A stretch of 64,000 nucleotides of DNA from Diprion similis (lineage: Eukaryota > Arthropoda > Insecta > Hymenoptera > Diprionidae). Made by a program: the position numbers and the translations under genes. The DNA lies in contig NC_060114.1 of assembly GCF_021155765.1 (NCBI RefSeq), positions 22,240,501 through 22,304,500 on the forward strand. Direction: 5' to 3'. This document shows, in pieces, positions 48,001-64,000 of this stretch. Each line of letters opens with the position of its first letter. Within the stretch, counting starts at the first letter, position 1. A model generated the notes under the pieces. The model was not told the DNA's origin. It searched no databases and saw only the letters and a program-made list of their open reading frames with translations.

Positions 48001-50182
48001 CATCGATACTATTACGTGTATAGATATTTCTGCATTTAAGTTTTTTTATTTTAATAATCGTACGGTAAAATGAACTTTGGTCAAGTCTGGCTGGTTCTCC
48101 GATACAGTGGTTTAAATTTAAATATTAAAAATTAGGCTTACATTGTCGTGTAGAGTAAACACACGAAATGTGGTTCCTAACGACAATAATTATGCAACGA
48201 AATCTGTTGATTATAGTTATACTTGTGGTTTGCTGATTTTTTCTTTATCGGTTTGCAACAACTTAATTGTTTATTCAATGCAGTGTAATTATTTGTCACA
48301 AAAGTAGGAAAGATAAGAACAAAGGGCAATATCGGACCCATTTTGTATGTATGATAGGTCTGTTCGTTTTTCTGACGCGCAGAGCAGTTCCCTGTGTTAC
48401 ACCCGTTGTCATTGACCAAGAATCTGCCCCACAGCATCCAGCGTCAAACCGAATGATACTATTACGCATGCAAGCGTATGTGCTTGGGCACGTAACTTAA
48501 TTTTAATTATACTGTATGTTTCTTAAATTATATTTGCATCTGCTGGGGAAACTACAATTATCACAAAAAAATTGTATCACTCGCCAGCTTCCGCAGCAGC
48601 TGACACGGAGGTGTTTTTTTTTTTTTGGGTGACTTTTCATTCTAGTTGTCGATTCGTAATCGAATTGATGAATATACTGTATACTACAAATTGGTGACGC
48701 CGTACGATAATATTTACATAAATCGTAATATCTGTTGATTTACAATCGTGGAAAAGTCACCTCGATAATATAATATGATATAATATTTAATACGTTATGT
48801 ATGGACATGCATGAAAATACTAATTTTTAATGATCTTTGTACAGAATATTGTAAAATATATTTTTAGTACTTGTTTTGGTTTCACTAAATTACTCTTTGT
48901 CTTTTTCACATTTCAAACCGAACGAGGAGTTACGTTTCAATTATTGCGGTTTAAGCTGTACCCATTTGCTACAAGTTGGATGCGTAGTGGATCGTCATTA
49001 GTGAATTGGGTACTATTGGAACTGGAACTGGCGTTACATCAACCGGTAAGGGGACAGCGTCTCAAAATGCGTTCGATTATAATTTATTAGCTAGCTCTGA
49101 GCATTTTCAGATCGCCCTAACTGCTGAAAGTGCGTTCATTTTTTTAGTCCCTTTTTTCTCGCTATTTATTTATTTATTTTTTTGTACGGAAAGGCACACT
49201 TATACGTTTCCTATATATTTTTGGACACTGAATCCAAATTTGATGTAAAAAATTTAATACAACTATAAAAAACCCCTTGAAATGGGCTGAAAACGGGGTC
49301 GTTTGTTGTTTCAGACGCAGTGTTCTTGAATGAGGTTTATATGAATATTTATTTTGAGACAGTACAATTTTAGACCGAAAATAGGTGCATCCCCCAATAC
49401 TCTACAGTATACTATATGCACCCTTAAGGATGGCGAAAACCACCTCTATGCATTGAATTTTGGAAATTTGAAGGCCATCCTAAGATCTCTGTTTGTCAAT
49501 CAATGAATTCCAAGCGTTTTTAGTATACGTTTATTACCAAATTTCTCCGCTAACTAATTACATTCACAAAGACACGTTTTTTTTTGCATATATTAATTCA
49601 TAACAATTATAAACTATTGTGGATTCACGAAAAATCCTAATAATCCCAAAGTTTAGGTATTTTGTTATCTGAAAATGCAAAAAAATTCGAGATTTTGCAT
49701 GAAGTATAAAAAAATGCGAGAAAGAAGACCAAGAAGGGTGCCACTATAGTGGTTTCTGTGACTGAAAGGGTTAAGAAATCGCGATAAAATCAACTAATTT
49801 ATCCATGTACCGTATACAATAGCGTTGGGAAGTATCTATACAGATACAAGTATCTAAGACACATTGTCTTGATACTTTTTCCCACTGCCTTTCCCGTACA
49901 TTATATCTGCATTTAGGTACCTTTTAATTGCAGCATCTCGTGTCTGTGTCGAGATTTCGTTTTTATTTGTTCTTGTATGTAACACAAATCAGCAGATACA
50001 CATGCATTGTTACGTAGGGTTCGATCAATTATTGTTTTTAGACTGCCTATCAGCCGATCGTTATGCAGCAAAGTTGTCTTATACGGAATAACGATGTATG
50101 TGCAAAAAAAATATGGCTTATCAAAGCCCTGCTTCAGGAGACGGATTTTGATTCTGGTTCCAGTGATGAAAAGGAAATCAAA

Positions 50183-50400
50183 AATTTCCGATCTCTGAGA
50201 ATCGCAAAAAAGCAAGGCTAACCCCTTTGGGTTTTTTCAGTCGAAATCTGAGCAACTTTGAGAAATATTTAAAGTAATTCCTTGATGCGCTATATCGACG
50301 TAGTTTTGCGAGAGGAATCGATTGTGTGCAGTCCGAATACGCTATCAGCTGCTGCATCTCGCTTTTGCATTTCCTCCATTTTTTCGCACTTTTAATAATC
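50183..50400. repeat. Solitary diverged copy of the 312-bp satellite monomer
   Basis: Several blocks match the array at 61268-64000 in the same order and orientation: aaaagcaaggctaacccctttgg, then attttgcgagaggaatcgat with one change, then cgcagtcc-aatacgct-type sequence. The copy is clearly more diverged than array monomers and is not tandem. Confidence 0.7.
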
Positions 50401-57911: not shown

Positions 57912-59756
57912 TTATTTAATCATAAAATAGGCGAAATATGTGGCAAGTACGACCCAGTGGCTAGCAAAGCTGAGACTGGACCACTTCTCCATTGCATGCG
58001 AGTAACTATATCCCGTCTCTTGTTGTTCAGATGTATCGAACATCAGTCCCAAGTAAGCCAGATGGAACATGGCCAATGCAGAGAATAAAATATTTATCAC
58101 CAAAACCCACCAACAGTTGGCTGTGGTTCGTTTGTGTATACATTTGTGGCCGCTGCAACGTCTAGCGGCAATGCAAGCATCGAAAGTACGAGCAAGTTCC
58201 TGCCTTAACTGGTATTCGACATATGTGTAGAACCCAAGGCTTAGAAGGACGGCGGCTAGCTGGAAGTTGAAACCATGGAGAAGAGAACTGACTGCGTAGG
58301 TGAGGAAGACTGCTCCGAACTGACCAAAATGTTCACGGCTGTGTCGAAATACATCTAAATCATGAATGATATGCAAATTAATTATCTGCTCTGGCGATCG
58401 AAAGTGTTGACGAAAACTGATTTCATCGTCGCTCACATGTTTTCAGCCAATTATGCATGGGGATATTCCAATGAACAACGACTTGGACAAGAGAGTGCGG
58501 TAGCTCGACTGATCTGGGTTTTGTTACAGTAGCTGTGGTCGAGGAGAATCCTCCTAGCAAAGCCAAGCCCCCGGATGTATAGGATATGAAGTAGTGCGAA
58601 GATCGGAAGCACAATGCCTCTCTGTATGCCACAATCCATCTAAAACACATTTCTTTCAATGAGCATTGGTATCAAACAAAGGGGAAGAAGTTGTTTCATC
58701 TGAGTTGTGACTCAGCGCTGACCTCCATACGGAATCCGGAAAAATCCATTCAGCCCAGCAATTCGATATGCTTAGAAATGCAAATGCGAGCGTCAAATAT
58801 CCAAGAGCTATGAGAATCCTTCGTAAACTCTGCAACAAATGCATAAGCATTGACATACCGATATGCACCTTCAAAACTAGTACATAAGTAAAACAGATAA
58901 TGTACCTTACCCACTGGTTAACACGATACAGGGTGGCATAATCTTTGTAGGAAACCCAGGGCCCGAAAAGGCAGGTGGGTGGGCACAGCATATATCCTGT
59001 GTATTCCAGGAGACTAGGTGATGGAGAAATGTCAGATTCCATTGCGACGCTCACCGCCTTCATAGAAGCAATCATGGTAACGCCACGTATTTTGTGCCAG
59101 AATGCTGGTTTCATCCATCTTTCGCTGCGTCAAATGGTTAAAAAGCATGTCAAACCCCTCCTACAATCACATGTGTCCAACTTGAATGATTCCAGTTAAC
59201 ATGTTCTATCCATTTCACCTACCCGTACAATATTACACCAAAGCATAGCAAACTGATAGTTAGCCTTCTCTCATACCGACCAGGCAAACAAAAAACCAGG
59301 TACGATAAGGTAATCAGGGTAATCAACAAGTACAAACATTCAGCGGCATACAGTTGTACAACGTAGAATCCAATGACTGCAGAAATTAGATGAAAGCCTC
59401 GTTGCGGTGTGTAGCCTATAATAATAAACCAAAATTGGACTATCAATACGATTTTCATTCGAGTTGTATAACAATATTTGATACTTACTAGATTGGGTTA
59501 TACTCTTGAATATGATGGAAGCTATCACCAGTGGAATTAAGTAATTGCAAGCATCAAATACTGTAGGGTATACACAGCGGTTGTAAATATTTCTCAGGCT
59601 CTGGTCGTCGTTTACTTGATGGTCGTATTCATCTTCATACTCGTAGTCCGCATTTTCGTAAGAAACGAATAAATCTTGTTCTTGATTGCGTGACTGATAT
59701 TCGTAGTCCAGGTTATCGTCATAATGCAATAATCCCAAGTCTTGGTAATCGCCCAT
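57912..59756 (-). CDS. por: Porcupine, Wnt O-acyltransferase of the MBOAT family (6 coding exons)
   Basis: Exons on the minus strand, 5' to 3': 59756-59489, 59415-59223, 59124-58911, 58829-58723, 58639-58437, 58354-57912. Phases agree; 475 aa, near the 460-525 aa usual for the family. Porcupine is a multi-pass endoplasmic-reticulum enzyme that attaches palmitoleate to Wnt ligands, which is needed for their release. Family blocks are visible: LCPPTCLFGPWVSYKDY, VVHWNIPMHNWLKTYVF and SSLLHGFNFQLAAVLLSLGF. H355 in LLHG is the likely catalytic histidine of the MBOAT fold, and many hydrophobic segments fit 8-11 membrane spans. The first about 65 residues are hydrophilic and very rich in Asp, Glu, Tyr and Gln, ahead of the first membrane segment. 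The gene is convergent with cdc14. Confidence 0.95.
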
Positions 59757-60486
59757 ACCTCTTTATCCTAAAAGAAACTTGTTGAATAGTAGCAAGTGGT
59801 GCGCATGGATGGAGTAAGTAGGAAATTCAATATGCTCGTACGATTCTATACCTCGGTTTGTATGCACTTCAGATTCAGTTCGTAATGCAGCATTGATAAG
59901 ATATATTATATTTGAATATAGAATGCATATTTTAGAGAATTTTTGTCAACGTAATATATAAGCTCGTGTGAACGTGAACAGTGTTATTTCAGGTTTCGTA
60001 TAATAATTGAAATTTGCTGCGCATAGATTGTAATATCGTTTTCATCGTTTTGAAAAGTTATTTAAGAAAATGGTACCTTTGTATGTTCACTGCACACGCT
60101 CTTTTTAATCTTGATTAATCACCAACCCGACATGAGCATAGAATCAACTTAGATAGAGGTAATCTGATCTCACTTCGAAATATTGATCAGGATCCATTAT
60201 TCTTTGCATGGTAGAAGGAACGACATGTATTACCTCCTATGTTCACCATGCATTCGTTGTGTGCACCCCGAGGAACAGCTATGAACCTAAAACTTTTTCC
60301 CGCCAAAGTCAACTGAATGGCGGCGACGAGTCTCTACAGGTTCAGTACTACAGGCCTGATTGATGTGTTCATGGCACTTCCACGATCTACACCTGAAACA
60401 TAAACATGAGATGTTGCCAAGAGAGGGCCGTCCGGTAGAGTTCAATATTTCTCTCATACACCTAGATGAAAAAATATTGTATTGCG

Positions 60487-60610
60487 TGTATACCTCCCGA
60501 AGTAGATTCTGACCAAGGCCACCGGTTTCGTCAGCCACCATTTATTCAACCTGCGTAGCAGACGCCATCGGTGGCCTTGAACGATCAGAATCCACCTCGA
60601 GGGGTGTACG
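60487..60610. mobile_element. Foldback element family A, copy 3
   Basis: The left end tacctcccgaagtagattct pairs with the right end agaatccacctcgaggggtg, and the inner segments accaaggccaccgg and cggtggccttgaac pair as well. It is related to the copies at 18817-18948 and 29942-30066. Confidence 0.7.
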
Positions 60611-60637
60611 GTAATGATCATCAATGGCTTAACTTTT

Positions 60638-61034
60638 CGGCTAACTTGTTTGCGGTCCGAAACTAAATGCTAACTCGATTCTATAGGAACTATGTGAAAA
60701 TGACTGGCAATGAAGCCGACGTAGGCATGTGTAAGGAAACAAGGTCTGATATCGCGCATCCACTGCCGCTTCGGCTATTAAGAATGTGCCTGCACGTGAA
60801 AGACATTTATATTCAACTATAGTTGTGTGACGTCAGGTGCGAGCATCACTTGACTTTGCTACTGCGCATCTCCATTTAGAACACACCTTGTTTCCTTACA
60901 CACTGATCTGTGTATAGGTATAGAGATCAGTGTCTTACACCATGGATGCAAGGGAATGGGAGTCATTTTCACATATTATAGTTCATATGAAATCGAACTG
61001 ACATTTTGTTTTGGACTGAAAACAAGTTAGCCGG
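60638..61034. mobile_element. Composite terminal-inverted-repeat element
   Basis: The outer ends cggctaacttgtttgcggtc and, in reverse complement, cggctaacttgttttcagtc form terminal inverted repeats that continue inward for about 70 bp, through the tcgattctatagg and atgtgaaaatgact segments. They match the outer ends of the element at 9863-10325. Inside, a module at 60729-60901 has its own inverted ends (gtgtaaggaaac and gtttccttacac) and matches the solo element at 10499-10696. A small hairpin, cactgatct to agatcagtg, follows at 60900-60932. This looks like one element carrying another. Confidence 0.65.
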
Positions 61035-61267
61035 GAAGGAAAGGCATGATTGAATATCACGCAAAAGTGTTCACATCAAAATTAATTCATAGGACCCTTT
61101 TTCACTATGTGGAATCTGGGGTATTTGAAAACGGCATTTGGAGTATCGTATGAGGATACCAACCACAAAAGTACGACAAATCCTTTTTGTCAGTGGGCTG
61201 CAATTTTTTAGGATGAAATCGCAGTGACTTTGAACTGAGTCTGATCGCTTTCCCCTACAAAATACGC

Positions 61268-64000
61268 CGACAATTCTTTGGGGCACTATTCCGACGTAAT
61301 TTTGCGAGAGGAATCGATTAAGCGCAGTCCCAATACGCTGCGATTGATAGCTGAAAAGTTACGGCCGGTAAACTGAAAATTTTCATCGTCATTTCTCTGC
61401 CGCTGGTCCTACGCTGTTTTTGATGTGTTTTCTGAGTTCCTGGGGGTCGAATTAATCTAGAAATGGTCATACAAATCGATTCCGAGACGAGAAATTTTCG
61501 GCTCCGAGAATGAAGAAAAAAGTAAGGCTTACCCCTTTGGATTTTTGGCGAAAATTTCGACGACTTCGAAAAATGCTGCAATTAATTCTTTGAGGCACTA
61601 TTCCGACGTAATTTTGCGAGAGAAATCGATTAAGCGAAGTCCCAATACGCTGCGATTGATAGCTGAAAAGTTACAGCCGAAAAACTGCGAATTTTCATCG
61701 TCATTTCTCTGCTGCTGGTCCTACGCTGTTTTTGATGTGTTTTCTGAGTTCCTGGGGGTCGAATTACTCTAGAAATGGTCATACAAATCGATTCCAAAAC
61801 GAGAAATTTTCGGCTGCGAAAATGACCAAAAAAGTAAGGCATACCCCTTTGGATTTTTGACGAAAATTTCGACGACTTTGAAAAGTGCTGCAATTAATTC
61901 TTTGAGGCACTATCCCAACGTAATTTTGCGAGAGGAATCGATTGAGCGCAGTCCCGATACGCTGCGATTGATAGCTGAAAAGTTACGGCCGAAAAACTGG
62001 AAATTTTCATCGTCATTTCTCTGCTGCTGGTTCTACGCTATTTTTGATGTGTTTCCTGAGTTCCTGTGGGTCGAATTACTCTAGAAATGGTCATACAAAT
62101 CGATTCCGCGACGAGAAATTTTCGGCTGCGAAAATGACCTAAAAAGTAAGGCATACCCCTTTGGATTTGTGACGAAAATTTCGACGACTTTGAAAAGTGC
62201 TGCAATAAATTCTTTGAGGCACTATTCCGACGTAATTTTGCGAGAGGAATCGATTAAGCGCAGTCCCAATACGCTGCGATTGATAGCTGAAAAGTTACGG
62301 CCGAAAAACTGCAAATTTCCATCGTCATTTCTCTGCTGCTGGTCCTACGCTGTTTTTGATGTGTTTTCTGAGTTCCTGGGGGTCGAATTACTCTAGAAAT
62401 GGTCATACAAATCGATTCCGAGACGCGAAATTTTCGGCTCCGAAAATGACCAAAAAAGTAAGGCTTACCCCTTTGGATTTTTGGCGAAAATTTCGACGAC
62501 TTTGGAAAGTGCTGCAATAAATTCTTTGAGGCACTATTCCGACGTAATTTTGCGAGAGGAATCGATTAAGCGCAGTCCCAATACGCTGCGATTGATAGCT
62601 GAAAAGTTACGGCCGAAAAACTGCAAATTTCCATCGTCATTTCTCTGCTGCTGGTCCGACGCTGTTTTTGATGTGTTTTCTGAGTTCCTGGGGGTCGAAT
62701 TACTCTAGAAATGGTCATACAAATCGATTCCGAGACGCGAAATTTTCGGCTCCGAAAATGACCAAAAAAGTAAGGCTTACCCGTTTGGATTTTTGGCGAA
62801 AATTTCGACGACTTCGAAAAATGCTGCAATTATTTCTTTGAGGCACTATTCCGACGTAATTTTGCGAGAGAAATCGATTAAGCGAAGTCCCAATACGCTG
62901 CGATTGATAGCTGAAAAGTTACAGCCGAAAAACTGCGAATTTTCATCGTCATTTCTCTGCTGCTGGTCCTACGCTGTTTTTGATGTGTTTTCTGAGTTCC
63001 TGGGGGTCGAATTACTCTAGAAATGGTCATACAAATCGATTCCAAAACGAGAAATTTTCGGCTGCGAAAATGACCAGAAAAGTAAGGCATACCCCTTTGG
63101 ATTTTTGACGAAAATTTCGACGACTTTGAAAAGTGCTGCAATTAATTCTTTGAGGCACTATCCCAACGTAATTTTGCGAGAGGAATCGATTGAGCGCAGT
63201 CCCGATACGCTGCGATTGATAGCTGAAAAGTTACGGCCGAAAAACTGGAAATTTTCATCGTCATTTCTCTGCTGCTGGTTCTACGCTATTTTTGATGTGT
63301 TTCCTGAGTTCCTGTGGGTCGAATTACTCTAGAAATGGTCATACAAATCGATTCCGCGACGAGAAATTTTCGGCTGCGAAAATGACCTAAAAAGTAAGGC
63401 ATACCCCTTTGGATTTGTGACGAAAATTTCGACGACTTTGAAAAGTGCTGCAATAAATTCTTTGAGGCACTATTCCGACGTAATTTTGCGAGAGGAATCG
63501 ATTAAGCGCAGTCCCAATACGCTGCGATTGATAGCTGAAAAGTTACGGCCGAAAAACTGCAAATTTCCATCGTCATTTCTCTGCTGCTGGTCCTACGCTG
63601 TTTTTGATGTGTTTTCTGAGTTCCTGGGGGTCGAATTACTCTAGAAATGGTCATACAAATCGATTCCGAGACGCGAAATTTTCGGCTCCGAAAATGACCA
63701 AAAAAGTAAGGCTTACCCCTTTGGATTTTTGGCGAAAATTTCGACGACTTTGGAAAGTGCTGCAATAAATTCTTTGAGGCACTATTCCGACGTAATTTTG
63801 CGAGAGGAATCGATTAAGCGCAGTCCCAATACGCTGCGATTGATAGCTGAAAAGTTACGGCCGAAAAACTGCAAATTTCCATCGTCATTTCTCTGCTGCT
63901 GGTCCGACGCTGTTTTTGATGTGTTTTCTGAGTTCCTGGGGGTCGAATTACTCTAGAAATGGTCATACAAATCGATTCCGAGACGCGAAATTTTCGGCTC
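61268..64000. repeat. Tandem satellite, 312-bp monomer in four-monomer higher-order units
   Basis: About 8.75 monomers run to the window edge, so the full length is unknown. A fixed landmark, attttgcgagaggaatcgat or a close variant, recurs every 312 bp. Monomers 1248 bp apart are nearly identical: those containing 61545 and 62793, 61857 and 63105, 62169 and 63417, and 62481 and 63729. Adjacent monomers differ at more sites. Diagnostic variants repeat in step, such as cgattgagcgcagtcccgat in the second monomer and ctgctggtccgacgctg in the fourth. Each monomer keeps an ORF open on both strands (75 codons on plus, 87 on minus), but substitutions change residues freely, so coding is doubtful. No B-box-type centromere motif was recognised. 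Confidence 0.95.

Follow-up and report, generated by a model that had tools for sequence, protein, structure and literature searches.

Does the four-monomer periodicity of a 312-bp tandem array at the edge of this Diprion similis locus represent the organization of a whole satellite, as the preliminary description proposed in calling it a satellite with a four-monomer higher-order repeat, or the outcome of local events in one array? The window, meaning the whole stretch of 64,000 nucleotides that was analysed, corresponds to C10:22240501-22304500 in an assembly of 269 Mb in 60 contigs. TRF, run on the window, placed a forward-strand tandem array of period 312 and 8.7 copies at 61272-64000, so that the start given earlier as 61268 moves to 61272, while the statement that the array runs off the window edge was correct. 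The contig sequence was read past that edge to follow the array to its end, giving 49 monomers in 15,288 bp, with the last base at C10:22317059 and an anchor spacing of 312 bp in 48 of 48 intervals. By its many head-to-tail copies of one unit, the array is satellite DNA. No open reading frame longer than 103 amino acids occurs in 61272-64000, and no Rfam family reached the gathering score in 60000-64000.

At a lag of 1248 bp, two mismatches (61585 and 61829) were found over 2495 bp (61536-64030), including an exact run of 2201 bp (61830-64030), which bears out the period-four similarity described for the window edge; the two example differences cited at that time, near 61581/62829 and 61824/63072, are these same two mismatches. 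Because 2495 is 2 × 1248 less one, the tract consists of three copies of one tetramer, spanning 61536-65278, or 3.74 of 15.29 kb and the first quarter or so of the array (positions above 64000 continue the window numbering along the contig). Copy 1 lies at 61536-62783 on the forward strand, with limits given to the nearest variant site, and differs from copy 2 at the two positions 61585 and 61829. By the lag-1248 comparison, copy 2 occupies 62784-64000 on the same strand, where the window edge cuts it, with a projected end at 64031; copy 3 follows, with its last base at 65278 (C10:22305778), and matches copy 2 without a difference over 1247 bp. The first monomer of the array (61272-61583, forward strand) carries 14 differences from the array consensus and contributes its last 48 bp or so alone to the tetramer, the lag-1248 mismatches being dense up to 61535, within this monomer.

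For the nine monomers starting in the window, of which the ninth was extended with contig sequence to full length, 15.6, 19.3, 15.3 and 3.0 differences per 312 bp were counted on average at lags 1, 2, 3 and 4; monomers four apart are thus far closer than adjacent ones (3.0 vs 15.6), a comparison on which the preliminary description had let its own reading depend. In monomers 2-12, identity was 99.91% at lag 4 against 94.84% between neighbours, so that inside the tract the close resemblance of monomers n apart that defines a higher-order repeat is present. With all 49 monomers included, the mean difference at lag 4 was 10.98, versus 13.51 ± 0.57 in shuffled monomer order (0 of 5000 shuffles as low), and the longest exact run in shuffled order reached 762 bp in one set of 60 shuffles and 772 bp in a further 20, against the 2201 bp observed. 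Since both the lag-4 mean and the exact run lie beyond all shuffles, the tetramer is not a product of chance.

The claim of a four-monomer higher-order repeat holds for 61536-65278, but neither for monomers 13-49 nor for the other arrays compared. In monomers 13-49, identity was 95.73% at lag 4 and 95.74% at lag 1, that is, without a period of four; past 65278 the tetramer is absent through to C10:22317059, and the period is therefore not kept along the whole array. Other block repeats occur there, chiefly at lags of 3, 5 and 8 monomers. Lag 3 includes an 858-bp exact run in monomers 36-43, and lags 5 and 8 fall within monomers 13-28, where, for example, a single difference separates monomers 14 and 22, and likewise 15 and 23, at lag 8, and 0-2 differences separate the pairs 13/18, 14/19 and 15/20 at lag 5. 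The lag-5 exact run of 513 bp is inside the shuffle range; support for a repeat at lag 5 comes from the mean difference at this lag across all 49 monomers, 11.98 against 13.51 ± 0.59 in shuffled order, where 0.8% of the shuffles reached so low a value.

A 23-mer of the unit had 1045 matches in the genome (control 0), and among the matches listed the 312-bp family was found on at least eight contigs (C1, C2, C4, C6, C7, C8, C10 and C13). Contigs C1, C2, C8 and C10 carry several sites each, megabases apart, with some of the C2 sites as little as 0.5 Mb apart; on C1, the matches listed include those at 0.13, 1.66, 4.5, 5.6, 7.1, 10.35 and 11.4 Mb. Scaling the 1045 23-mers by the 106 of 352 sampled monomers that hold the 23-mer gives about 3,500 monomers or 1.1 Mb, an order-of-magnitude estimate given that the share of monomers with the 23-mer ranged from 0 to 88% between arrays. 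A sister family with a spacing of 314 bp and a consensus identity of 76% forms arrays on C3 and, judging from match spacing, on C10, and diverged single copies of the satellite superfamily are also present in the genome. The window itself holds a lone degenerate fragment of this superfamily at 50182-50343 (forward strand; nhmmer E 7.3e-26); the best of its listed genome matches are to diverged copies standing alone and to arrays with 314-bp spacing.

The variant combinations of monomers 2 and 3 are private to the window array. A 48-mer with the monomer-3 variants had 13 matches at up to 2 mismatches, 3 of them exact, and a 30-mer with the monomer-2 variants had 1467 matches at up to 1 mismatch, 3 of them exact among the matches listed, in which exact ones come first; all six exact matches sit in the tetramer copies of the porcupine-side array. 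Of the two variants that the 30-mer covers, one also occurs widely in other arrays, so that the combination alone is private. Among the 11 stretches of at least 10 monomers compared for similarity within and between stretches, the window array included, ten were closer internally than to any other stretch, the exception being C2:9.64, nearest to C2:9.60, and these two are probably one array, although they were counted separately.

Block repeats are widespread in the family, with differing block sizes. The longest exact block repeat exceeded that of every monomer-order shuffle (60 shuffles each for eleven stretches, 20 each for three) in 11 of 14 stretches of at least 10 monomers, the window array included, a proportion biased upward by three stretches chosen for regular match spacing (8 of 11 without them). 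Eight further arrays came from scored candidates (9 of 2279 candidates were scored), C2:9.60 and C2:9.64 from the first 100 of the 1045 places of the 23-mer, and the C3 stretch from the genome matches of the satellite superfamily; the five-monomer array C1:10.35 was excluded from the counts, and the stretches on C6, C2, C8, C1 and C3 may be clipped at the ends of the fetched sequence. With positions in Mb, the longest run lay at a lag of 4 monomers in the window array, 7 in C10:18.67, 9 in C6:7.92, 7 in C7:0.39, 2 in C10:13.05, 10 in C8:25.58, 12 in C2:10.14, 5 in C2:9.60, 19 in C1:7.19, 7 in C2:13.74 and 11 in C1:0.13. Three of the 14 stretches (C8:14.82, C2:9.64 and C3:0.78 Mb) had no block repeat beyond that of shuffled order. 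The stretches compared thus do not have one period in common, the lags elsewhere being 2, 5, 7, 9, 10, 11, 12 and 19.

The clearest regular period among the stretches compared is that of C1:126-136 kb, with a period of 11, matches 3427 bp apart and 27 of 31 monomers nearest to one at a multiple of 11. Its contig opens with telomere repeats, about 126 kb away from the array at C1:126001-136000, and matches reach 153.9 kb. C1:7184001-7204000 is a piece of a large array or cluster with matches from 7.131 to 7.199 Mb; similarity in it is raised at lags 3, 6 and 9, and long exact copies of blocks lie 19 and 9 monomers apart.

We consider it highly probable that the 312-bp family is a dispersed, medium-copy satellite and that in-register unequal exchange reshapes its arrays. 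Such exchange within each array would copy blocks of varying size: near the left edge of the porcupine-side array, two successive four-monomer duplications would have generated three tandem tetramer copies, and elsewhere in this array blocks at lags of 3, 5 and 8 monomers would have been copied. A 2495-bp tract one base short of 2 × 1248 fits two exact four-monomer duplications, which probably took place in succession. The number and order of events that we infer, one tetramer copy becoming two, two substitutions arising, and two copies then becoming three, follow from the identity of copies 2 and 3 and the two differences of copy 1. The earlier claim that a multi-monomer block was amplified, as unequal exchange predicts, is supported by the same pattern, and the amplification is probably recent. 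The molecular step is likewise inferred, crossing over, conversion, slippage and re-integration of a circle being inseparable from sequence alone. Mean divergence from the array consensus is 17.0 differences for the edge monomers, a set defined once the values were known (monomers 1 and 47-49), and 7.5 for monomers 2-46, as Smith-type exchange predicts.

Simulation of mutation with random duplication and deletion of 1-12 monomers, in 40 runs at each of four settings, indicated that a tetramer tract of this length needs no special cause, because random exchange often yields such runs. At the setting nearest in divergence (16.6 vs 13.5 differences), the median longest exact run was 2409 bp, and runs of at least 2201 bp arose in 25 of 40 (62.5%); the other settings gave 62.5%, 22.5% and 17.5%, the last two being those of higher divergence. 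Lags with exact runs above 762 bp averaged 6.6 at the nearest setting against 3 in the array (lags 4, 8 and 3), which suggests that exchange is rarer here or that block sizes are unlike those assumed.

An alternative route, which we regard as unlikely although it is the strongest of the competitors, is that a multi-monomer circle was excised, copied and re-integrated, adding whole copies in one step; the dispersed arrays, too, could have been seeded in this way. The tract falls just short of three whole copies and the array is a whole number of monomers (49), as a circle would leave, but ordinary exchange produces the whole-number signature equally well, and the two differences of copy 1 from copies 2 and 3 suggest two steps. 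Array ends bear on this route as well. The left end of the window array is sharp at the unit start, with identity in 40-bp steps of 0.97 inside and 0.43 outside, and the left ends of four of six arrays (the window array, C10:18.67, C7:0.39 and C1:10.35) lie within about 40 bp of one monomer position, whereas those of C10:13.05 and C8:14.82 fade gradually and right ends fall at various monomer phases. This clustering slightly favours circle integration or a mobile carrier, the count being small, made after the fact and in part a consequence of the one-monomer query, from which some of the left ends at position 1 stem. Insertion of extrachromosomal circles has been proposed for Tribolium satellites in the part of PMC5844308 available to us.

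The left ends near one monomer position in four of six arrays would also suit monomers that belong to a transposable element spreading the arrays, a possibility to which the degenerate solo copies, the dispersed arrays and the MITE-like repeat adjoining this array could likewise be referred. Nevertheless, the common sequence in the flanks of the 12 stretches compared, four of them with less than 2 kb of flank, amounts to two short matches of 60 and 81 bp; a common mobile carrier was rejected on this ground, and we hold the transposable-element reading to be improbable. Slightly more improbable still is an assembly artefact in which the assembler duplicated the 1248-bp copy. The identity of copies 2 and 3 over 1247 bp is what an assembler might produce; against this, copies 1 and 2 differ at two sites, other arrays contain block repeats of other periods, and both the 3.7-kb tract and the 15.3-kb array are short enough to be spanned by typical long reads, in an assembly with 60 contigs for 269 Mb.

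On the reverse strand, porcupine (MBOAT family) occupies 57912-59762 in several frames, as assigned from structure and Pfam matches: the exon 57912-58442 has hits to porcupine structures (7ura and others) with E 5.6e-36, the frame 58656-59129 has one to Pfam MBOAT with E 2.5e-7, and the likely ATG, read from the frame, is at 59756-59754. The distance from this putative start codon to the array is 1516 bp, so the preliminary description was right to put the array about 1.5 kb upstream of porcupine, and an influence of the array on porcupine expression is possible. To the telomeric contig end, the distance is about 244 kb. In the assembled contigs, the one main block per chromosome that is typical of a centromeric satellite is not seen, and nothing in the sequence was found in support of a centromeric role for the 312-bp array. 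That the tetramer belongs to a higher-order repeat extending along the whole array, in a satellite that is centromeric or pericentromeric and alpha-satellite-like in role, is hardly credible: although monomers 2-12 are 99.91% identical at lag 4 against 94.84% between neighbours and some arrays, such as that with the 11-monomer period at C1:126-136 kb, are more regular, the tetramer is confined to about a quarter of its array with monomers 13-49 lacking a period of four, family matches are scattered along whole contigs (on C1 from 0.13 to 11.4 Mb), and the array lies 1.5 kb from a gene and some 244 kb from an end with telomere repeats.

The comparison with primate alpha satellite drawn in the preliminary description thus applies to the process and not to the role, considering a 15-kb array 1.5 kb from a gene in a scattered family. 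As in alpha satellite higher-order repeats, multi-monomer blocks of the tetramer tract are far closer than adjacent monomers; in contrast, the monomer is 312 rather than about 171 bp, three copies extend over 3.7 kb instead of megabases, and the family is dispersed and gene-near with a period that varies between arrays. Dispersed euchromatic satellites have been described in Tribolium and Drosophila, according to the portions available of PMC5844308, PMC7919458 and the review PMC10048060, and the present family is a further case of these, of mild interest in that block size varies between the arrays of one genome. In the available portion of PMC5844308, Tribolium castaneum resembles this family in having satellite arrays in chromosome arms, some of them beside genes, and higher-order repeats in both heterochromatic and euchromatic families (TCAST families and euchromatic repeats) are mentioned there with reference to Vlahovic et al. 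2017; the likeness is by description, and the difference is that several block sizes are documented here for one family in one genome. The euchromatic arrays of the Drosophila 1.688 (359-bp) satellite, again likened by description from the available part of PMC7919458, have a monomer length of similar order and are short and dispersed. The satellite of Diprion pini (Rouleux-Bonnin et al. 1996), likewise hymenopteran, comprises related subfamilies, as far as its title conveys.

Our results raise the possibility, which we judge about as probable as its opposite, that higher-order periods, differing from array to array (from 2 to 12 or more monomers), arose repeatedly and independently in one family whose many small arrays are scattered and not gathered in one centromeric block. 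If so, the arrays would offer natural replicates of how higher-order repeats originate, for which centromere function and long arrays would both be unneeded. The tetramer by itself matters little, being a tandem four-monomer duplication in a small satellite array, and a period read from 2.7 kb at a window edge need not reflect satellite-wide organization; taken together, the arrays form a data set for exchange sizes and rates in short arrays.

For the monomer, an origin as a dimer of two 156-bp halves was rejected, since the half-to-half score of 19 compares with a shuffle mean of 17.3 and a maximum of 27. Monomer positions 219-288 (for example 62426-62495) form an imperfect inverted repeat of about 70 bp with a score of 53, where 200 dinucleotide shuffles reached 38 at most, and in single-strand folding the monomer outdoes all of 100 shuffles (z -2.94). 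As a functional feature this hairpin was rejected: the consensus sequences of 4 of 12 stretches scored above the maximum of 200 plain shuffles, and variability is equal inside and in the rest of the monomer (0.052 vs 0.054). At the chromosome scale, the 1800 bp read at the C10 end (22559069-22560868) consist entirely of TTAGG repeat, and no tandem repeat occurs in the first 1500 bp at the opposite end. Between porcupine and the array, 60611-61060 is a MITE-like repeat in which two inverted arms of 83 bp, 73% complementary, are separated by 284 bp, and its arms and core have dispersed copies on many contigs at about 74-90% identity. A short inverted repeat with 25-nt arms, 80% complementary and separated by a gap of 16 nt, lies at 60514-60579.
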